A stretch of 38,455 bases of DNA, from contig WFXD01000099.1 in the NCBI GenBank assembly GCA_015490795.1, forward strand, positions 1 through 38,455, in the 5' to 3' direction. The notes beneath the pieces were generated by a model, which was not told the DNA's origin, ran no database searches, and worked only from the letters and a program-made list of their open reading frames with translations. Position 1 is the stretch's first letter, and each line of letters begins with the position of its first letter. Origin of the DNA: Gammaproteobacteria bacterium (GTDB taxonomy: Bacteria; Pseudomonadota; Gammaproteobacteria; Chromatiales; Chromatiaceae). Positions 17,760 to 33,072 of the stretch are shown in pieces. Position numbers and translations under genes: made by a program.

Positions 17760-20033
17760 ATGACATACAAAAAAACACCCTTGGCGTTTGCGCTCTCCCT
17801 TGTGCTCTCTCCCTGTTTATCTGTGGCCGCCGAAGCGGCAGCCGAGCTGGATGAACTGGTTGTGGAAGGCAGCTCTACCCAAGCCCCAACCACCCACTAC
17901 ACCAGCCCAACCACACGCATTACCGATATTGAAGCGGAAAGCATCAGCGTCACCACCGTAGAAGACTTTATAAAATATGAGCCCGGCATGGTCGTACGGC
18001 GGCGCTATATCGGCGACTCCAACGGCGTCGTCGGCATGCGCGGTTCAAACATGTTCCAGACCACCCGCACCATGGTTTATGCCGATGGCCTGCCACTGCA
18101 CTACCTGTTGCAGACCCGCTTCAGCGGCGCACCCCGCTGGTCGCTGGTTGCACCAGACGAAACCAAGGCAGTCGAAGTGGTCTACGGCCCCTTCTCTGCC
18201 GAATACAGCGGCAACGCCATGGGTGGCGTCATCAACATCGAGACCAAACTGCCACAAAAGCGGGAGTTTCACGCCGAATCCAGCTTTTTTGCGCAGGACT
18301 ACAACCACCTGGGCACCGATAAAACCTTTGAGGGAAACCGCCAGTTTTTCTCCTATGGCGACAAATATAACGACCTGAGTCTCTACCTCTTCCACAGCCG
18401 CCTGGAGAACGAAAGCCAGCCTCAGAGCATCCGCTACAACACCAGCAAGCCACTTGCCGGTGGTGAAACCGTCGTTACAGGCGCCTATACCGGGCAGACC
18501 TCAACCGGAGGGGACATCATAAACTATGCCGACTCCGGTGGTGAGGATGTCATCACCAACCTGACCAAACTCAAGCTTGGCTACGAATTTGGCGACTGGC
18601 TGGCACGCCTGACCCTGGCCTACGAAGACAGAGACAAGGAGACCGACCCCAACAACTACCTTCTCGATGCCAGCGGCAACCCCTTCTGGAGTGGTGAAGC
18701 CTCATTCAACGGCAGAGCCGTCACCGTCAGGCGCAGCCACTTCTCTGTCAGCGAACAGAATCGTGAAACCATGCTGGTCGGTGTTGGGCTGGAGGGGCCA
18801 ATCGGCACGAATGGCTGGATAATGGAGGCAAATTTCAGCTACTTCGATGTAATGGAGGATGAAAACCGCCAGTCTGACGAAAACCCTGACGACCCCACCT
18901 ATGACCGCTCTGGCCGCGTAACGGAATATGACGATACCGGCTGGGAGACCCTCGACCTCAAGGCGCATACCGAACGCTTTCTGGGCCGCAATGACATGAG
19001 CTTCGTTGCAGGCTACCACTACGACCACTACAGCCTGGAGATTCACAGCTACAACTCCAGCGACTACACGACAGGCGAAAAAACCTCACGCAGACAATCC
19101 ACCGGCGGCGACACCTTCACCCACGCCATCTTTGGCCAGTGGGGCTGGGACTTTGCCCCGGCATGGGATCTCGCCCTGGGCGCACGCTACGAACAGTGGA
19201 AGATGGAAGATGGCTTCTACTATAAGTATTCAACAAGCGAGATGGAGAACTACAAAGACCGCACCGAGCGCGGCTTCTCACCCAAAGCATCCCTTGGCTT
19301 CACCCCGGAGGGGCCATGGAAATACCGCTACTCAGTGGCCAGGGCCTACCGCTTCCCCATTGTGGAGGAGCTCTACAAAAACGAAGAGGCGACCAACAGC
19401 ACCAGCATTGCCGATGCCGACCTGGAGCCAGAGATCGGCATCCACCACAACCTGATGGCAGAGCGCAGAATCCCCGGTGGCTTCCTGCGATTCAACCTCT
19501 ACCGCGAGGTGATCGACGATGTCATCTTCCAGCAACGAATCACCCTGCCCAGCAGCACCACCGTATCCTCCTTCCTGCCGATTGATGAGGTCACCACCAC
19601 CGGCCTGGAGTTCATGTTGCAACAACAACGGGTGCTCAACACCAACCTGGATATCCGCTTCAATGTCACCTACACCGACAGCGAAGTGACCCAGCACGAT
19701 GCCGACCCCAGCGTGGAGGGCAACACCATGCCACGCATGCCAGAGTGGCGCAGCAACCTGCTGCTGAGCTATCACATCAACACCATGTGGGACAGCTCCG
19801 TCGGTATCCGCTATGCCAGCAACAGCTACGGCCGACTGGACAACACCGATGATGAAGAGCAGGTCTTTGGCGCACAGGACAGCTACACCTTCGTTGATCT
19901 GAAGCTCAACTTCCGGCCCACCAAAGAGAGCCGTATCGGTTTTGGCATCGACAATGTTACAGACGAAAAGGCCTTTGTCTACCACCCCTGGGCACAGCGC
20001 TCTTTCTATGTGGAAGGCAGCATTGGTTTCTAA
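17760..20033 (+). CDS. TonB-dependent outer-membrane receptor of the TonB2 locus
   Basis: This 757-residue receptor has a signal peptide (MTYKKTPLAFALSLVLSPCL, cleavage near VAAEA), a TonB-box-like DELVVEG (31-37), and a plug. The plug runs to about residue 160 with VVRRRYIGDSNGVVGMRG and VEVVYGPFSAEYSGNAMGGV, then INIETK. The 22-strand barrel ends with the classical aromatic residue (VEGSIGF). I use the ATG at 17760 because the signal peptide begins there. It heads the run of nine plus-strand genes and probably feeds substrate to the neighbouring beta-propeller and thioredoxin. No haem-receptor FRAP/NPNL motif and no Fur box upstream were seen. The ligand is unknown; a metal chelate is suggested by the neighbours. 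Confidence 0.93.
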   Translation: MTYKKTPLAFALSLVLSPCLSVAAEAAAELDELVVEGSSTQAPTTHYTSPTTRITDIEAESISVTTVEDFIKYEPGMVVRRRYIGDSNGVVGMRGSNMFQTTRTMVYADGLPLHYLLQTRFSGAPRWSLVAPDETKAVEVVYGPFSAEYSGNAMGGVINIETKLPQKREFHAESSFFAQDYNHLGTDKTFEGNRQFFSYGDKYNDLSLYLFHSRLENESQPQSIRYNTSKPLAGGETVVTGAYTGQTSTGGDIINYADSGGEDVITNLTKLKLGYEFGDWLARLTLAYEDRDKETDPNNYLLDASGNPFWSGEASFNGRAVTVRRSHFSVSEQNRETMLVGVGLEGPIGTNGWIMEANFSYFDVMEDENRQSDENPDDPTYDRSGRVTEYDDTGWETLDLKAHTERFLGRNDMSFVAGYHYDHYSLEIHSYNSSDYTTGEKTSRRQSTGGDTFTHAIFGQWGWDFAPAWDLALGARYEQWKMEDGFYYKYSTSEMENYKDRTERGFSPKASLGFTPEGPWKYRYSVARAYRFPIVEELYKNEEATNSTSIADADLEPEIGIHHNLMAERRIPGGFLRFNLYREVIDDVIFQQRITLPSSTTVSSFLPIDEVTTTGLEFMLQQQRVLNTNLDIRFNVTYTDSEVTQHDADPSVEGNTMPRMPEWRSNLLLSYHINTMWDSSVGIRYASNSYGRLDNTDDEEQVFGAQDSYTFVDLKLNFRPTKESRIGFGIDNVTDEKAFVYHPWAQRSFYVEGSIGF

Positions 20034-21282
20034 ATCAGGCAACCTTGCCAAATGGCTGACAGGGCTGGCACTGCTGCTGGCCCTGTCACCTCCTGTTCAG
20101 GCGGCCAAAGATAAGCGCGCCAGCCACAGCCTGCTTGAGGCGTGCCAAAAAGCATCCACCCTGCCATCACCCGACTGCGGCCTGACCCCAACCCCGGCCT
20201 TCGACAAGGATGGCAAACTGTGGCTTGTATTTGTACAGAATAACCACCTCTATCTGACCCACTCCACTGATCTTGGGAAACACTTTGCACCACCTGTTGC
20301 CGTCAACCGGGTGCCTGAAGCGATCTATCACGATGGCGAAAACCGGCCCAAGCTGCTGATCGGCCCGCAGGGCCAAATCTACATCTCCTGGAGCCAAAAG
20401 GGCGCAGCCCGCTTTACCGGGCATATCCGCTTCGCCCGCTCCCTCGATGGCGGCCGGAATTTCAGTGAACCACAGACAGTCAATGACGATCTTGCACCCA
20501 TTGGCCACCGCTTCGACAGCATGGCCACAGACAGCCAGGGGCGCATCTATATCGCCTGGGTCGATAAACGCGACCTGGTCAAGGCCAAGCAGTCTGGCAA
20601 GCCCTACGCCGGCGCAGCCATCTACTATGCGCTCTCAGAGGATCAGGGCAAAAGCTTCACCCCCAACCGCAAGGTGGCAGACCACAGCTGCGAATGTTGC
20701 CGCATCGCCATGGCAGCAGACAGTGATGACCAGATCGTAACGCTCTGGCGTCATATCTACCCGGTCAACATCCGGGATCACGCCATCGCCCGGCTGGGGA
20801 TGGAGCCCCCTCCGGCCAGTGGCCAGCCCACCCGTGCAACAGATGACAACTGGATGGTCGAAGGGTGCCCGCACCACGGGCCGGATCTGGCACTGGATGA
20901 CAACAGAAAGGCGCATATCACCTGGTTTACCCAAGGCGAAAAGAACCGGGGCATCATGTACGGCCGCTTTGACCTGGCCCGCAACACCCTCGAAACCCAG
21001 CAGAGCATCGACACCTCCAGCACCGCCTCCCGCCCCCAGATAGCCACAGCTGCCGGCCAGCTCTTTATGCTCTGGAAATCATTCAACGGCACCTCTACCG
21101 AACTGCGGATGAGGATCTCCCGCGACAATGGCAACAGCTGGGGCACACCACACACCCTGGCAGAGACCACCGATGGCTCAGACTACCCCCTGCTGATCAC
21201 CCATGGAAAGAGCCTTTTCGCCTCCTGGCACACCCGCGCCGAAGGATACCGCCTGATCCCGGTGACAACTGATGCACCATAG
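20008..21282 (+). CDS. Secreted BNR/sialidase-like beta-propeller with CECC and CPHH motifs
   Basis: This 424-residue exported protein has a signal peptide (LAKWLTGLALLLALSPPVQAA) and at least four Asp-boxes, STDLGKHF (86), SLDGGRNF (145), SEDQGKSF (210) and SRDNGNSW (371), which mark a sialidase-type propeller. Annotation pipelines would probably call it exo-alpha-sialidase, but I see no clear sialidase arginine triad or N-terminal RIP motif. Two Cys/His clusters stand out: HSCECCR (226-232) and CPHH (287-290), which look like metal ligands or redox thiols. It overlaps the receptor by 26 bases and the thioredoxin by 11, so it belongs to this operon. The start is uncertain: ATG at 20008, or a TTG at 20023 with GGAAGG before it. 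Inferred role: periplasmic or surface ligand binding, possibly of a metal. Confidence 0.85.
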   Translation: MWKAALVSKSGNLAKWLTGLALLLALSPPVQAAKDKRASHSLLEACQKASTLPSPDCGLTPTPAFDKDGKLWLVFVQNNHLYLTHSTDLGKHFAPPVAVNRVPEAIYHDGENRPKLLIGPQGQIYISWSQKGAARFTGHIRFARSLDGGRNFSEPQTVNDDLAPIGHRFDSMATDSQGRIYIAWVDKRDLVKAKQSGKPYAGAAIYYALSEDQGKSFTPNRKVADHSCECCRIAMAADSDDQIVTLWRHIYPVNIRDHAIARLGMEPPPASGQPTRATDDNWMVEGCPHHGPDLALDDNRKAHITWFTQGEKNRGIMYGRFDLARNTLETQQSIDTSSTASRPQIATAAGQLFMLWKSFNGTSTELRMRISRDNGNSWGTPHTLAETTDGSDYPLLITHGKSLFASWHTRAEGYRLIPVTTDAP

Positions 21283-21760
21283 ATTGATAAGCAAGTGCAG
21301 CCTGCTGCTTCTGCTACTGCTCCCGGGGCTGGCTGCGGCGGAGTTCCGCCCCTTCACCAGTGGCAGCCTCAAAGAGATCACAACCGCTCACACAGGGCGG
21401 CCCTTCTTGCTGGTGCTCTGGTCAGTCGACTGTCCGCCCTGCCTGAAAGAGCTGAAGGAGATCGGCCAGCTATACCCCCAGTTTCCGCCTGACGGACTGG
21501 TTCTTATCTCAACCGACAGCGCAGATTATGCCGATGAGGTACAGAAGATCCTCAACCGATATGGGTTAGCTGATGCCGAAAGCTGGCGCTTTACAGATGG
21601 TTTCCCCGAGCGCATGCGCTACCAGATTGATCCCAACTGGTATGGCGAGCTGCCCAGAACCTACATCTACAACAGCCAGCACCAGCGGATAGGCCGAAGC
21701 GGCATACTGAGCCAAAGGATATTGCAACAATTCATTACCATGAGTAACCACATTGAATAG
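21272..21760 (+). CDS. TlpA/redoxin-like periplasmic thioredoxin
   Basis: This 162-residue protein has a signal peptide (SKCSLLLLLLLPGLAAA) and a thioredoxin-fold domain whose active site is WSVDCPPCLKEL (Cys54-Pro-Pro-Cys57). LVLISTDSADYADEVQKIL is the TlpA-type second strand and helix, and ELPRTYIYN supplies the cis-proline. It is likely a periplasmic thiol-disulfide oxidoreductase. Its ATG overlaps the end of the beta-propeller gene by 11 bases. The natural client candidate is that propeller's CECC motif, or a receptor-bound metal chelate that must be reduced (inference). Family call good, client unproven. Confidence 0.88.
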   Translation: MHHRLISKCSLLLLLLLPGLAAAEFRPFTSGSLKEITTAHTGRPFLLVLWSVDCPPCLKELKEIGQLYPQFPPDGLVLISTDSADYADEVQKILNRYGLADAESWRFTDGFPERMRYQIDPNWYGELPRTYIYNSQHQRIGRSGILSQRILQQFITMSNHIE

Positions 21761-22538
21761 GCCACCCAAAAAAAGAGATCACTGCTTTGCCGCCCTGCTG
21801 CTCATCACCTTCAGTGTCACAGCAGCAGCCATTGACGACCCGCTCAAGGCATCCATCGAGACCAGCATCCGCAACAACCAGCAGGAGGCCAAAACCCAGG
21901 GGCGCATTGAAAACCTGAGCGACAAGACCCGTGCGATGCTGGAAGAGTACCAGCAGCTGAGCCGGGAGCTGGAACTGCTTACCACCTATAACGACCAGCT
22001 ACAGCGGCTGCTCGACCACCAGGAGGAGGAGAAGCACTCCATCCAGGGGCAGATGGCAGGCCTGGAGGCCACCCAGCGGGAGATCGTCCCCCTGATGCTG
22101 CAGATGACAGCTTCACTACAGGAGTTTGTAGCGGTGGACCACCCCTTTCTGCCAGAAGAGAGGAGACTGCGCGTGGCGCAGCTCCAGGAGCTGATGGATA
22201 GGGCAGACATAAGCATTGGCGAGAAGTACCGGCGCGTGCTTGAAGCCTACCAGATCGAGATGGAGTACGGACGCACCATCGAGGCCTATCGGGGCACACT
22301 CAAGGACGATGCCGACAACCGGACCGTCGACTTTCTGCGCATCGGCCGCATCGGCCTCTACTACCAGACCCTGGATCGCCAGGAGACAGGGGAGTGGAAC
22401 GCCTCCACAGGCAGCTGGCAGAGGCTGCCCGACCACTACAACCTGTCGATTCGCAAGGGGCTGCGCATCGCCCGCAAACAGTCTGCGCCCGACCTGCTCT
22501 ACCTGCCCATGCCATCCCCCCAAGAGGTGAAGCCATGA
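21753..22538 (+). CDS. DUF3450 periplasmic coiled-coil protein of the TonB2 system
   Basis: This 261-residue exported protein has a signal peptide (CFAALLLITFSVTAAA) and a long coiled coil at residues 40-100 (LEEYQQLSRELELLTTYNDQ). It then has the DUF3450 C-terminal half: VDHPFLPEERRLRVAQL, EKYRRVLEAYQIEMEYGR, FLRIGRIGLYYQTLD. In Vibrio a homologue precedes ttpC-exbB2-exbD2-tonB2. It begins at TTG (21753) overlapping the thioredoxin stop by 8 bases; no ATG is available in frame before the signal peptide. Its last codons overlap ttpC (ATGA). The role is probably structural in the periplasmic part of the energising complex. Confidence 0.88.
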   Translation: MNRPPKKRDHCFAALLLITFSVTAAAIDDPLKASIETSIRNNQQEAKTQGRIENLSDKTRAMLEEYQQLSRELELLTTYNDQLQRLLDHQEEEKHSIQGQMAGLEATQREIVPLMLQMTASLQEFVAVDHPFLPEERRLRVAQLQELMDRADISIGEKYRRVLEAYQIEMEYGRTIEAYRGTLKDDADNRTVDFLRIGRIGLYYQTLDRQETGEWNASTGSWQRLPDHYNLSIRKGLRIARKQSAPDLLYLPMPSPQEVKP

Positions 22539-23908
22539 TGCGCCTCACGCCGCTACTGATACTGACAGCAGCCATCAGCTGGCCGCTGCTGCTCTGCGCA
22601 GAGCCGGCCAACCATCTTGAGCAGCTGCTACAGCAGGTACAAAAAAGCCAGCAGCAGGAGGCCGCCACACGAAAGGCGCGCGAGGCACATTTCCTGGCAG
22701 CCCACAGCAACCAGAAGAAGCTGCTGGCCGCCATCAAGGCACAGCTGGCCGAAGAGCAAAAACGCAGCCAGCGGCTGCGGGAGCGCTTTGACCACAATGA
22801 ACAGCAGCTGATCGAGCTGGAGGCCGAACTGAAACGCCAGACGGGTGACCTCGGAGAGCTCTTTGGCACCGTACGCCAATCAGCCAAGGATCTTGCCATC
22901 CTGATCAAAGACTCCCTGGTTTCAGCCCAGTACCCGGATCGCACGCCATGGCTGCAAACCCTTGGCGAGAGCAAAAAACTACCCGATATCGGCGAGCTGA
23001 AGCAGCTCTGGCATCTGATACAGCAGGAGACGGTGGAGTCCGGCCGGGTAGCCCGCTTCCCGGCAACCGTGATCAACACAGACGGGCACGCCAGTGAACA
23101 GGAGGTCATCCGGGTCGGCCTGTTTAACGCACTGGCGCAGGGGCAGTACCTGAACTATCAGACCGAGACCGGCCGCTTCGTGGTGCTGGCCCGGCAGCCG
23201 GCCCAATCTGAAAACCTGCTGGCAGCCTACCTTGGGATGGATGATGAACAGAGCAACAATCTTGCAGTAGACCCCACCCGGGGCGTGCTGCTAAGCCTGC
23301 TGGTAGAGACCCCGGACCCGCTGGAGCGAATCCACCAGGGGGGCATTGTTGGCTATGTCATCCTGGCGCTGGGGCTTTTGGGGCTTATCATCGTTATCAT
23401 CCGGCTCATCTACCTGGCAATAACCGGGCGCGCAATACAGCAACAGCTGCTCCACCCCGCCTCACCCTCCCTCAAAAACCCCCTGGGGCGCATTCTGGCA
23501 GTGGCCGCAAAGAACCCGGATGCCAGCCCGGAGAGCGACCCAAAACAGGGGCACAAGCTGGAGCTACAGGTCGATGAGGCCATCCTGCGGGAGCTGCCCC
23601 GCCTGACCCAGGGCGAAGGGCTGGTCAAACTACTGGCCGGAGTGGCACCGCTGCTGGGGTTGCTGGGCACCGTAGTGGGCATGATCGCCACCTTCCAGGC
23701 CATCACCCTGTTTGGCACCGGCGACCCCAAGATGATGGCCAACGGCATCTCCCAGGCACTGGTTACCACCGCACTGGGGCTGATCGTGGCCATTCCGCTG
23801 CTCTTTATGCACACCCTGGTCACCAGCCGCAGCCAGGCACTGATACAGATCCTGGATGAGCAGTCCCTGGGGCTGGTGGCCGCCAGCAGGGAAAACCCTG
23901 ATGCATGA
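22535..23908 (+). CDS. TtpC-like MotA/TolQ/ExbB family protein with extended periplasmic coiled coil
   Basis: TtpC is the extra component of Vibrio-type TonB2 systems, needed with ExbB2/ExbD2 to energise TonB2. This 457-residue protein has a signal peptide (LLILTAAISWPLLLCA) and a Gln/Glu-rich coiled coil (about 25-105). A periplasmic domain follows, then a transmembrane helix near residue 270 (VGYVILALGLLGLIIVIIRL). The MotA/TolQ/ExbB channel domain runs from about 360 to 445 (LAGVAPLLGLLGTVVGMIAT, QALVTTALGLIVAIPLLFMH). I start at the ATG at 22535, with AAGAGGTGA just upstream and an ATGA overlap with DUF3450; the frame upstream is not real. Its end overlaps exbB by 8 bases. Confidence 0.92.
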   Translation: MMRLTPLLILTAAISWPLLLCAEPANHLEQLLQQVQKSQQQEAATRKAREAHFLAAHSNQKKLLAAIKAQLAEEQKRSQRLRERFDHNEQQLIELEAELKRQTGDLGELFGTVRQSAKDLAILIKDSLVSAQYPDRTPWLQTLGESKKLPDIGELKQLWHLIQQETVESGRVARFPATVINTDGHASEQEVIRVGLFNALAQGQYLNYQTETGRFVVLARQPAQSENLLAAYLGMDDEQSNNLAVDPTRGVLLSLLVETPDPLERIHQGGIVGYVILALGLLGLIIVIIRLIYLAITGRAIQQQLLHPASPSLKNPLGRILAVAAKNPDASPESDPKQGHKLELQVDEAILRELPRLTQGEGLVKLLAGVAPLLGLLGTVVGMIATFQAITLFGTGDPKMMANGISQALVTTALGLIVAIPLLFMHTLVTSRSQALIQILDEQSLGLVAASRENPDA

Positions 23909-24416
23909 GCATCTGGACGGCATGCTGCGGTTCCTGGAGACCGGCGGCCCGGTACTCTGGCCCATCGGGCTGACCGCCTTCGCCCTGGGTGCCATCATCA
24001 TAGAGCGCTACTGGTACTTTCAGCTGGATTTTCCACGCAAGATGGCCCAACTGGTATCACAGTGGAGCGCACGGCCCGACCTCAGCTCCTGGTGCGCAGT
24101 ACAGATCCGTGAGGCGATAATTGCCGAGACCAAGATCAGCCTGAACCGCGGCATGCCACTGATCCGCATGCTGGTTGCCCTCTGTCCCATGCTGGGGCTG
24201 CTGGGCACCGTCACCGGCATGATGGAGGTGTTCGACGTGATGGCAATACTCGGCACCGGCAACGCCCGCGCCATGGCCTCCGGCATCTACCAGGCCATCA
24301 TCCCCACCATGGCCGGCATGATGGTCGCCCTGCCCGGACTCTACTTCAGGGCCGAGCTTCAGCGGAAGGTGGAGCGCCGGATAGAGCGGCTCACACACCA
24401 TCTGGTGCTGACCTAG
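23901..24416 (+). CDS. exbB: ExbB2-like proton-channel subunit
   Basis: ExbB forms the pentameric inner-membrane stator that, with ExbD, couples the proton gradient to TonB. This short form (171 residues) has three predicted membrane segments: 18-40 (VLWPIGLTAFALGAIIIERY), about 88-115 (CPMLGLLGTVTGMMEVF) and 128-150 (QAIIPTMAGMMVALPGLYF). The start at 23901 overlaps the ttpC stop (ATGCATGA). The stop codon TAG (24414-24416) is part of the CTAG that begins palindromic element A2, which separates this gene from exbD by 293 bases. In Vibrio the two are nearly contiguous. Confidence 0.94.
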   Translation: MHEHLDGMLRFLETGGPVLWPIGLTAFALGAIIIERYWYFQLDFPRKMAQLVSQWSARPDLSSWCAVQIREAIIAETKISLNRGMPLIRMLVALCPMLGLLGTVTGMMEVFDVMAILGTGNARAMASGIYQAIIPTMAGMMVALPGLYFRAELQRKVERRIERLTHHLVLT

Positions 24417-24697
24417 TGCATCGTCAAGGTTATATTGATGGACTCAGCATTCCTGTGGCGTTTCGCTGCAAGGCGCAGTGCGCAGGCAATGGCCTTAGTC
24501 CTTGTCAAGCACTGCAACGCAGCAGCGGGACACCACAGGAGCGCCCGAAGGGGTGGCCTGTCAGCGTCCATGGCCGCGCCGCATCTCTTGGTCTCTTATT
24601 AGCGGCGAGACGCGTCTCGCCTAAATCGCCTACTTTTGGTGCCATGGATGCTGACAGGCCAACTGAGTCCGGCAATATAACCTTGGCGGTGTACTAG
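24413..24697. repeat. Palindromic CTAG-bounded element A2 between exbB and exbD
   Basis: This 285-base element has imperfect terminal inverted repeats of about 35 bases: CTAGTGCATCGTCAAGG... at the left, and a right end whose complement reads CTAGTACACCGCCAAGG (5 mismatches). It is nested with further inverted repeats: GGCCTGTCAGC near 24555 against its complement at 24642-24660, and a perfect 18-base palindrome GGCGAGACGCGTCTCGCC at 24604-24621. It contains no credible gene. It shares ends with A1 and A3. CTAG at both ends supports a 4-base target duplication. It splits an operon, so either transcription reads through or exbD-tonB needs a new promoter. Confidence 0.87.
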
Positions 24698-24709
24698 AGA
24701 AAAGCAATC

Positions 24710-25117
24710 ATGCGCAGACATCGTGTATATAACAGCAGCAGCGCCGACTCCGAGGTCAATCTGACCCCGATGCTGGATGTGGTCTTCATCATGCTGATCT
24801 TCTTCGTGGTAACCACCTCCTTCGTCAAGGAGTCAGGGGTGGAGGTCAACCGCCCCAACGCCAACACCACTCAGCAGCAGGAGTCTGCCAACATCCTGAT
24901 TGCCATCCGCCCCAATGGCGAGATCTGGATAGATGGCCGTGCCGTGGATGTGCGGGCAGTGCGCGCCAATGTAGAGCGGCTCCGGGCAGAGTTCCCCGAG
25001 AGCAGCGTCGTCATACAGGGCGACCAGAATGCCCAGATCGGCTCACTGGTGCGAGTGATGGATCAGGTACGGATGGCGGGCATCACCAATGTAGCCATAG
25101 CGGCTGAAGCCCAGTAA
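24710..25117 (+). CDS. exbD: ExbD2-like proton-channel subunit
   Basis: ExbD is the single-pass partner inside the ExbB pore. This 135-residue protein has the family signature DSEVNLTPMLDVVFIMLIFF, with Asp23 in the membrane helix as the predicted protonatable residue. VVTTSFVKESGVEVNRP follows, then a periplasmic domain (ILIAIRPNGEIWIDG ... VVIQGDQNAQIGSLVRVMDQ). AGAGAAAAG precedes the ATG. Element A2 ends 12 bases upstream, so the ribosome-binding site lies in or just beyond the repeat edge. The stop overlaps the tonB start by one base (TAATG). Confidence 0.96.
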   Translation: MRRHRVYNSSSADSEVNLTPMLDVVFIMLIFFVVTTSFVKESGVEVNRPNANTTQQQESANILIAIRPNGEIWIDGRAVDVRAVRANVERLRAEFPESSVVIQGDQNAQIGSLVRVMDQVRMAGITNVAIAAEAQ

Positions 25118-25767
25118 TGCCCTCCAGCTCCTATCTTTTCAGGCTGACCCTTTCAGGCGCAGGGGGCATACTCATCGCCCTGGCACTGCTCTGGCTGATG
25201 CAGCTGATGGTGATCAATGATGACACTCAGATGATGGAGAAATCCAAGCGCCAGGTGATGGAGTTTGTACGCCTTAAACGCCCATCCGAGACCCGCCTCA
25301 AGCAGCGGGAGAAGCCAGAGGAGCCACCGCCACCCGACAAACCACCCCCTCAGCTGCCCGAGCTGGAGCTGGCAGTTACCAAACCCACCCTCAAAACCCC
25401 CAATATCGCTATGGCGATGCCGGAGCTGTCCAGCTCCTCCATGCGTTTTGATGGCCCCTACATCGGCGCAGTAAGCCAGGGGCCGCCAGACCGGGATTTC
25501 ATGGTACTTTCGCGCATTCCGCCACGCTACCCCTACCGGGCAGAGCGCAGGAAGATTGAGGGGTGGGTCAAGATCTCATTTATCATCACCGAGCAGGGCT
25601 CGGTGCAGGATGCCGTGGTGATCGACGCCCAGCCCAAAGGGGTCTTTGACATGGCAGCGCTACAGGCCATCCTCAAGTGGCGATTCAAGCCCCGGATCGC
25701 CAATGGCAAGCCGGTGGCAACACGCGCCGATCAGATCATAAATTTCAAGCTAAACAAAAGAGACTGA
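25117..25767 (+). CDS. tonB: TonB2-like energy transducer
   Basis: TonB spans the periplasm and transmits energy from ExbB/ExbD to outer-membrane receptors. This 216-residue protein has an N-terminal membrane anchor (residues 12-34, LSGAGGILIALALLWLMQLM). A short Pro/Glu/Lys-rich segment follows (KPEEPPPPDKPPPQLPELE, about 66-84), much shorter than in E. coli TonB and typical of TonB2 forms. The C-terminal TonB domain runs from PPRYPYRAERRKIEGWVKIS to ILKWRFKPRIANGKPVATRA. Its start and stop each overlap a neighbour by one base, so exbD-tonB-TPR are coupled. It is the likely transducer for the receptor at 17760. Confidence 0.96.
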   Translation: MPSSSYLFRLTLSGAGGILIALALLWLMQLMVINDDTQMMEKSKRQVMEFVRLKRPSETRLKQREKPEEPPPPDKPPPQLPELELAVTKPTLKTPNIAMAMPELSSSSMRFDGPYIGAVSQGPPDRDFMVLSRIPPRYPYRAERRKIEGWVKISFIITEQGSVQDAVVIDAQPKGVFDMAALQAILKWRFKPRIANGKPVATRADQIINFKLNKRD

Positions 25768-26978
25768 TGAAGAAACAGCACATAGGGCTATTGATCGTAC
25801 TGCTATGGGGCATCAGCAGCGTCACCTCCACAACACATGCCGCCAAGAAAAAGAGCCTCTCCCAGCATACCTATAAAATGCTGATGGCTGCACAGGAGTC
25901 GCTTGGCGCAGGGGATACCGGCAGGGCCATATCCAGCCTGCAAAAACTGCTGGCCGAGCTGGAATCCAGACCCTACGAGCAGGCTATCGTGTTGCAGGGG
26001 CTCTCCCATGCCTATATCTCGCAGGAGAAGTACCGCTCCGCCATCCCCCCGCTCAAGCAGAGCGTAGCGCTGAGGGCGCTGCCTGATGAGCCACAGCAGC
26101 GGGCGCACTACAATCTGATACGGCTCTATATGGCAACAGAGGATTTTGCCGAGGCGATCAGCCAACTGGAGATCTGGCTTGACCAGGTGAAAACACCCCC
26201 GGCAGAGGCCTATGTGATGCTGGCCACGGCACACCTGCAACTGGAGCATTATCAATCTGCCATCGAGCCATTGCGCACCGCCATCAAGATCAGCAAGACG
26301 CCAAAAGAGAGCTGGTATCAAAGCCTGCTGGGGGCCTACAACGAGCTGGAACAGCATGACCACTGCGCAACCCTGCTGCACACCATGTTGCAGCGCTTTC
26401 CAGACCGCCCAAACTACTGGCGGCAGTTGGTGGGTATCCAGCTGACCCAAGAGAGATACCATGATGCCCTGGCCACTATGGAGCTGGCATATCTGCGAGG
26501 GCACATCAAGAGCGAGAAGGAGCTGCTCAACCTGGCCCAGCTCTACCTGCACCTCAACGCCCCTTACAAGGCCGCAGCACTGATTGAGCGTGAGATAAAA
26601 CAGGGTCATATTGACAAGAGCGAGAAGAGCTGGGAGCACGTTGCCAATGCCTGGCTACTGGCGCGCGAGACCAGCAAGGCGATTGCTGCACTGGAGAGCG
26701 CCGGGATTACAGCGCGCAACCCGCAACTGGGGCTCCAGCTTGCCCGGCTCTATATCGAGTCCAGGCGCTGGGCCGAGGCGGATGACACGCTAAGCGCCAT
26801 CATCGACACCGGCAAACTCGATGCCGCAGATACCGGACAGGCATGGATGCTGCTGGGGATCGTGCGGCATGAGACCAAATCAACTGAGGCGGCTCGCACT
26901 GCATTTATTCAGGCAGGAAAATATCGCAAGACAGCCAGCAGCGCCAGGCAGTGGCTGGCCTTTCTTGATCAAACATAA
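25767..26978 (+). CDS. TPR-repeat periplasmic protein of the TonB2 system
   Basis: This 403-residue protein has a signal peptide (KKQHIGLLIVLLWGISSVTS, cleavage near THAA) and tandem tetratricopeptide repeats along most of its length (for example YEQAIVLQGLSHAYISQEKY, AEAYVMLATAHLQLEHYQSA, AWMLLGIVRHETKSTEAARTA). The last gene of Vibrio TonB2 clusters is likewise a TPR protein whose loss impairs TonB2-dependent uptake; the same role is inferred here. The ATG at 25767 overlaps the tonB stop (TGATG). Element D1 begins 2 bases after its stop codon. Confidence 0.9.
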   Translation: MKKQHIGLLIVLLWGISSVTSTTHAAKKKSLSQHTYKMLMAAQESLGAGDTGRAISSLQKLLAELESRPYEQAIVLQGLSHAYISQEKYRSAIPPLKQSVALRALPDEPQQRAHYNLIRLYMATEDFAEAISQLEIWLDQVKTPPAEAYVMLATAHLQLEHYQSAIEPLRTAIKISKTPKESWYQSLLGAYNELEQHDHCATLLHTMLQRFPDRPNYWRQLVGIQLTQERYHDALATMELAYLRGHIKSEKELLNLAQLYLHLNAPYKAAALIEREIKQGHIDKSEKSWEHVANAWLLARETSKAIAALESAGITARNPQLGLQLARLYIESRRWAEADDTLSAIIDTGKLDAADTGQAWMLLGIVRHETKSTEAARTAFIQAGKYRKTASSARQWLAFLDQT

Positions 26979-26980
26979 AC

Positions 26981-27153
26981 CTAGAAAAATCAGTTGAGCC
27001 TACTGCGAACGTCTAATGCACTCAATCTACAGGATTTTTTCCCACATTTTGAACTCACCGTATGGGTGATACGCAATCGTTCAAAATGTGGGAAAAAATC
27101 CTGTATCTTAAGCACCTTAGCCGCTCTCGCTACGGCTCAACTGATTTTTCTAG
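26981..27153. repeat. Palindromic CTAG-bounded element D1
   Basis: This 173-base element has perfect 20-base terminal inverted repeats (26981-27000 and 27134-27153) starting CTAGAAAAATCAGTTGAGCC. A perfect 24-base inner hairpin follows (27031-27054 and 27079-27102), with intervening sequence that is also partly self-complementary, so the whole element can fold into one long hairpin. The loop region holds TCACCGTATGGGTGA. It sits between two convergent genes (TPR protein and chemoreceptor) and could serve as a terminator there. D2 at 32879-33072 is the second copy, in opposite orientation. Confidence 0.88.
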
Positions 27154-27176
27154 GATAAAACGAGGCTGTTTTCAGA

Positions 27177-32768: not shown

Positions 32769-32878
32769 GTCCTGCTCCTTTCCTGTAGCTATGAAGATGG
32801 CGCTCAAGCCATCATGATCCAGCCGATGGAGAGCACCTTGGTTATTATATACAGTCAAGCCGCTGCCTGCTCTTCAAC

Positions 32879-33072
32879 CTAGAAAAACCAGTTGAGCCGT
32901 AGCGAGAGCGGCTAAGGTGCTTAAGATACAGGGTTTTTTCATATATTTTGAACGAAGTCGTATCACCCATACGGTGAGTTCAAAATATATGAAAAAACCC
33001 TGTAGATTGAGTGCATTAGACGTTCACACTTGTGCCCGCTTTTTGGGTAGTAGGTTCAACTGTTTTTTCTAG
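32879..33072. repeat. Palindromic CTAG-bounded element D2 (overlaps the end of pgeF)
   Basis: This 194-base inverted-orientation copy of D1 has terminal repeats of 20 bases with two mismatches (32879-32898 and 33053-33072) and a perfect 25-base inner hairpin (32929-32953 and 32978-33002). Compared with D1, the inner hairpin differs at four positions in each arm, all compensated. The left part of the element, as read from the D1 direction, has about 20 extra bases. Its right end overlaps the last 17 bases of pgeF and supplies that gene's stop codon. Confidence 0.88.

Follow-up and report, generated by a model that had tools for sequence, protein, structure and literature searches.

A secreted Asp-box propeller with four conserved cysteines, encoded between a TonB-dependent receptor and a thioredoxin, as part of a probable copper-uptake module

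Background

Bacterial copper import is poorly known compared with export, and the described systems that come closest to the one reported here are receptor operons. Passages of PMC9426467 describe CruR as a copper-sensing leader open reading frame (ORF) of operons that also carry receptors, PCuAC and AhpC_TSA genes, the last being interpreted as peroxide detoxifiers. In the cited parts of PMC12914433 the receptor CrtA imports chelated Cu(II) and PepSY_TM comes next in more than 75% of crtA loci, and in those of PMC13038864 CrpH is proposed as the copper reducer. The ligand-site residues of CrtA are Y130, W265, E337, Q356, H358 and R395. Passages of PMC12617631 report that TccA supplies the aa3 oxidase of Caulobacter and that deletion of the Bradyrhizobium receptor PcuB gave no detectable phenotype. 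We report here the analysis of a stretch of 38,455 nucleotides (the window) from a gammaproteobacterium of the Chromatiaceae (contig WFXD01000099.1 of assembly GCA_015490795.1), in which a TonB-dependent receptor, a secreted Asp-box beta-propeller and a TlpA-like thioredoxin are encoded in succession, a trio that recurs widely in relatives and that probably serves copper uptake.

The locus resembles the CruR-CrtA(BfrG)-CrpH operon of Bordetella pertussis in being, across the family, a short receptor operon, often headed by DUF2946/CruR and accompanied in relatives by PCuAC and sometimes by ExbBD-TonB. It departs from the CrtA operon in what comes after the receptor, which is PepSY_TM for CrtA and the propeller and thioredoxin, with no PepSY_TM, in the window. 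TccA and the OprC-type receptors (TIGR01778) are comparable as receptors tied to copper supply, although the window receptor gave no row with TIGR01778 at E 0.001 and the cited portion of PMC12617631 mentions no propeller alongside TccA. A word search of the main text of PMC9426467, PMC12914433, PMC13038864, PMC12617631 and PMC9973294 found neither 'propeller' nor 'sialidase'.

A parallel in gene company, by description, comes from passages of PMC5328954, in which the thiocyanate dehydrogenase clusters of Thioalkalivibrio hold a BNR gene and an outer-membrane receptor, both of unknown role, near copCD and a copper enzyme, and in which a strain lacking the two was the hardest to adapt to thiocyanate. 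This is again a receptor and BNR pair near copper genes, whose BNR protein may belong to the present family; no cluster of this type was recognised in 12 regions inspected after a class-wide search. NosZ and thiocyanate dehydrogenase are copper propeller enzymes with His-based catalytic sites. The present protein would share with them the periplasmic propeller and the copper, which is here a prediction, whereas its invariant residues are four cysteines. It also has the fold and the Asp boxes of the PLL lectins and the sialidase-type propellers, but shares only about 10% identity with them, and the four invariant cysteines and the copper neighbours characterise the present family.

Results and discussion

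A conserved trio of genes

The receptor (757 amino acids, 17760 to 20033, Pfam plug and barrel), the propeller (424 amino acids, 20008 to 21282, Pfam BNR_2, with a signal peptide judged by eye) and the thioredoxin (162 amino acids, secreted, 21272 to 21760, Pfam AhpC-TSA, with CPPC at residues 54-57, nucleotides 21431-21442) all lie on the forward strand, overlapping by 26 and then by 11 bases, and a TonB2-type set follows directly. This succession had been described in the earlier note and both the coordinates and the Pfam domains agree with it.

There is good support for the trio being a conserved module. The propeller set draws on 80 loci from a scan of named genomes and, in the window's phylum, 12 of 299 genomes matched; three of the 92 loci (L010, L011 and L013, with scores of 200 or less) were excluded before alignment, leaving 89, which were thinned at 75% identity to 42 loci; for seven of these a longer stretch of the same genome was used instead. 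A receptor ends no more than about 300 nucleotides upstream of the propeller in 34 of the 42 (31 recognised by a local profile hidden Markov model (HMM), and L084, L091 and L092 by NCBIfam) and lies within 1.1 kb in two more, L022 and L069. A TlpA-like CxxC thioredoxin follows the propeller in 34 of the 42. An ExbD match was seen in nine, so that a TonB set of its own is not a regular part of the module. The co-occurrence that had been anticipated for receptor, propeller, thioredoxin and TonB genes is thus widespread for the first three and much less common for the fourth.

The earlier note had called the window thioredoxin TlpA-like, and the ORF at 21272-21760, which belongs to the thioredoxin family and has the CxxC and the conserved proline, can be classed by sequence as TlpA/ResA-like; AhpC-TSA scores 26.5 bits against a cut-off of 26 and ResA is the best match by sequence. 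In the related loci the CxxC is present in all 34 thioredoxins and P128 in 32 of 32. Since the window protein matches PF00578, the AhpC_TSA genes described in part in PMC9426467 may partly be this thioredoxin, and we suggest that some of those in CruR operons are. For the receptor, no match in the PDB was found at E 1e-10, and about 400 bits are shared with receptors of CruR-headed Burkholderia loci. Among ten relatives' receptors in the NCBIfam search only that of L092 matched TIGR01778, at 158.3 bits against a cut-off of 472.45.

Copper-type genes beside the propeller

The earlier note had left the metal open. We now replace an unspecified metal by copper as the most likely cargo, on the strength of the DUF2946/CruR and PCuAC neighbours. 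A DUF2946/CruR-type ORF lies upstream of the propeller in 14 of the 42 loci, and all 17 CruR matches of at least 20 bits in the 658 kb searched are upstream of a propeller, and 15 share its strand. The copper chaperone PCuAC is nearby in seven loci and in five of these directly downstream of the thioredoxin. The HMMs for CruR and PCuAC had been seeded from the same loci in which they were counted and Pfam was therefore used as a check, on 129 neighbouring ORFs picked from 147 (themselves from 249), mainly receptor frames and long frames having been omitted. Among the families listed (25 of 59), DUF2946 was the commonest, with ten counts, of which at most two stem from the deliberate addition of the L084 and L075 frames, PCuAC came second with five, and PepSY_TM was not present. 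In single loci DUF2946 and PCuAC exceed the Pfam cut-offs; in L100 and L137 the order DUF2946, receptor, propeller, thioredoxin, PCuAC is consecutive, and the distant C-x-C-C propellers of L132 and L133 also adjoin DUF2946 and a receptor.

On a tree of 43 propellers, 15 of whose rows carry the CruR label (L091 by motif only), this label requires 5 changes as against 12.7 when shuffled, and it is present on both sides of the midpoint split; with five changes needed, the CruR link is not confined to one clade. The clade formed by the window, L014, L016 and L019 is without it. The trio thus stands beside copper-response genes in many relatives and is probably a copper-uptake module; that copper is the cargo of the family we regard, from this gene company, as likely.

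Some observations on these loci stand apart. In L090 (1451-3956) three CruR-like ORFs, one on the opposite strand, are clustered upstream of a single receptor-propeller pair. L022, labelled as a metagenome-assembled genome (MAG) of Klebsiella pneumoniae, and L014, labelled as one of Polarisedimenticolaceae, sit among gammaproteobacterial rows of the propeller tree and are possibly mislabelled or mixed bins. A link to blr7088, a second pcuC-like gene of Bradyrhizobium, was considered and rejected, as a published table passage places it in bsr7087-blr7088 only.

Conservation of the propeller's cysteines

The propeller carries Asp boxes of the form S-x-D-x-G-x-x-[FW] at residues 86, 145, 210 and 371. 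HSCECCR (residues 226-232, nucleotides 20683-20703) and CPHH (residues 287-290, nucleotides 20866-20877), both on the forward strand, are where the earlier note had placed them, and it had made the conservation of both a test of its proposal. For the cysteines this conservation is complete: C228, C230, C231, C287, P288 and G291 are invariant in the 89 aligned propellers, as are R113, R232, R248, R256 and D257, while R188 and H258 are each kept in 88, and H303 and H290 in 87. For the histidines of CPHH it fails in part, H290 being replaced by Q in two propellers and H289 being kept in only 66, with E in 19 and D in 4 of the other 23, every one of which is a Burkholderia locus; as both vary, CPHH is not itself conserved.

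The scan behind 80 of the homologues had used patterns including CECCRIAM and NWMVEGCP and the conservation was for this reason retested by whole-profile searches that the motifs did not steer. A first draw of 398 genomes from the window's phylum gave matches in 22. All 15 full-strength matches (the window's own included) have C-[EQ]-C-C and CP[HE][HQ]G, and two weaker ones keep C-x-C-C and CP; nine weak rows, from seven reading frames, lack both motifs and were not counted as members. A second draw, from the class at E 1e-15, matched 30 of 369 genomes and gave 31 matches besides the window's own, all 31 with C-x-C-C and 29 with CP..G, which is missing from the partial match L173 and from L174. 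Within short flanks of its 20 strong loci, a receptor was matched in 17 and a thioredoxin in 16. The weaker group alters the histidines, which suggests that the four cysteines are the ancestral core; as read from the alignments, the invariant core is these four with P288 and G291.

More distant relatives differ in their surroundings. L185, L187, L188, L189 and L194 encode C-x-C-C / CPVNG propellers with no adjoining receptor-thioredoxin pair, and several of these start like lipoproteins. L134 (7981-8577) encodes a relative of 198 residues that has no C-x-C-C and adjoins clpB; it is divergent from a DUF2946-receptor-PepSY_TM operon.

Fold and placement of the motifs

An AlphaFold2 model of the propeller, built with 50 sequences, has a pLDDT of 88.6 and a pTM of 0.86, and from its strand list we read seven blades. 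Among solved folds the PLL lectins come nearest (8q82_A, Z 30.6, rmsd 2.8, 308 residues aligned), ahead of CylK, glycoside hydrolases, a putative neuraminidase (4irt, Z 27.6) and lyases. The PLL lectins are seven-bladed. In the strand order of the model CECC comes after strand 221-227 and before strand 234-237, CPHH comes ahead of strand 293-296, and R256-D257-H258 opens strand 255-263, which puts both motifs in D-to-A loops of neighbouring blades. In the standard propeller topology D-to-A and B-to-C loops occupy one face, so that the two motifs are expected there on adjacent loops, on either side of H258. The earlier suggestion that the motifs lie together is in this way supported, as regards the face that they share, by the modelled topology.

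A reading of the module and its rivals

The earlier note had seen in the gene arrangement a dedicated uptake pathway, which is still its natural reading. On balance we think that the trio is a copper-acquisition module, in which the propeller takes copper through its cysteines and the thioredoxin re-reduces them. Linkage, conservation, fold and the copper-type neighbours of relatives were computed, whereas the binding of metal, its reduction, the substrate of the thioredoxin, the nature of the chelate and the hand-over are our inferences. The receptor, driven in the window by its own TonB2-type complex, would import chelated copper to the periplasm, where the secreted propeller would receive the copper species on one face. 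The invariant arginines R113, R232, R248 and R256, with R188, could bind an anionic chelate, while the cluster of C228, C230, C231 and C287, with H258 close in chain topology, would take the copper, probably as Cu(I). Cysteines oxidised during the reduction of Cu(II) would be re-reduced by the thioredoxin, and the copper could pass on to PCuAC-type chaperones and heme-copper oxidases; in support, the window's genome has one PCuAC, on another contig, and three matches to the heme-copper oxidase COX1. The narrower claim, in which copper is bound and reduced at the four cysteines and the thioredoxin assists, we hold to be evenly balanced. We propose only tentatively that the propeller founds a class of its own among periplasmic copper proteins, in which a four-thiolate site on the propeller face would strip Cu(II) from the imported chelate to give Cu(I), be reset by the thioredoxin and replace the heme-dependent PepSY_TM reductase of CrtA operons.

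Several results weigh against such a module. The set is not obligate, for no thioredoxin was found in eight of the 42 loci (L064, L069, L073, L082, L083, L084, L086 and L092, mostly Methylophilaceae) and no same-strand receptor within 1.1 kb in six (L062, L064, L082, L083, L086 and L099). CruR was not found in 28 of the 42, including the window's nearest relatives L014, L016 and L019, and no DUF2946 was found in the window's genome, in which the operon thus has no CruR head. Copper is consequently assigned to the window by way of its homologues only, and we are less sure of it in the window's own clade. DUF2946-like proteins are moreover not all copper-specific, many preceding efflux genes in the account given in passages of PMC9973294. 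PepSY_TM-like ORFs were found by single-sequence search in L077, L080 and L082, some kb from the propeller, so that any replacement of PepSY_TM is not strict. Finally, the window receptor is under the cut-off for all named NCBIfam subfamilies and it is heme-type models that score best.

This last result is what an iron or heme uptake module would lead one to expect, with the propeller binding iron, heme or a siderophore; the best score is indeed that of a heme/hemoglobin-type model, although at 139.6 bits against a cut-off of 323.75, and as the families that recur beside the propeller are those of copper and not iron we consider this improbable. The strongest rival keeps copper as the cargo and makes the propeller a metal-free protein that binds or breaks the chelate. 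Its cysteines would form disulfides maintained by the thioredoxin and its Arg/His face would act as a lyase or a binding site, which suits both the presence of lyases, lectins and the alkylating enzyme CylK among the fold neighbours and the retention of R113, R232, R248, R256, D257 and H258 in 88 or 89 of the 89 propellers. It does not account, however, for distant relatives that retain the four cysteines while R256-D257-H258 and the histidines of CPHH have changed, and we judge this rival rather unlikely.

It is slightly less probable than the iron reading that propeller and thioredoxin are maturation factors for a cuproenzyme of the periplasm, such as an oxidase with its CuA site, and that the receptor is only co-regulated. 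Periplasmic thioredoxins reduce CuA cysteines before metallation (a passage of PMC13038864) and PCuAC is among the neighbours, but no other gene lies as close to the propeller, or accompanies it as often, as the receptor does. A sialidase or other glycosidase is very improbable. BNR_2, at 33.4 bits, is barely above its cut-off of 31.4, the profile matches to sialidases (E 9e-05) cover part of the chain, and glycoside hydrolases rank second and fifth by Foldseek, with 4irt also listed by VIA-align; against these stand the lack of any NCBIfam match for the propeller, the lectins as its nearest folds, the copper neighbours and the invariant cysteines, and the sialidase reading is not favoured. 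The earlier note had seen no sialidase active-site arginines; conserved arginines do exist, namely the five named above, and some of them may correspond to the arginine triad that sialidases of family GH33 use together with Tyr/Glu and Asp.

A widespread protein that would be annotated as a sialidase, with full-strength matches in 15 of the 398 genomes of the first draw (the window's own included), thus seems to accompany copper-type receptors regularly, and it suggests what receives the imported copper in the periplasm where no PepSY_TM reductase follows the receptor. Word searches of the open-licence literature, subscription papers being outside their scope, did not find this propeller described as a copper protein.

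The TonB2-type genes and repeated elements of the window

Downstream of the thioredoxin, and again on the forward strand, lie genes for a DUF3450 protein with a TTG start (21753 to 22538), a long ExbB-like protein with a MotA_ExbB domain (22535 to 23908), an ExbB2-like protein (23901 to 24416, Pfam MotA_ExbB), an ExbD-like protein (24710 to 25117), a TonB-like protein (25117 to 25767, TonB_C) and a TPR protein (25767 to 26978), all recognised by their Pfam domains. This is the gene order of the Vibrio TonB2 set. The exbB2 equivalog model gives the window protein 40.8 bits, below its cut-off of 135.35, and the TonB2-type assignment is accordingly one by architecture only. The earlier description of nine genes running in one direction, mostly with overlaps of 1-26 bases, is correct, seven of the eight junctions overlapping.

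The exception is the exbB2-exbD junction, which is opened by an inserted inverted-repeat element of 293 bases (24417-24709), absent from the earlier note, with inverted ends of 44 bases; in the relatives L014 and L016-L019 the two genes touch or are at most 20 bases apart. Nine further long copies are found among the 44 matching stretches of the window's own genome and the element looks like a miniature inverted-repeat transposable element. A second, palindromic element of 186 bases with perfect 21-base ends lies at 26975-27160, has another copy at 32878-33028 and matches 83 stretches of the same genome, counting both strands.

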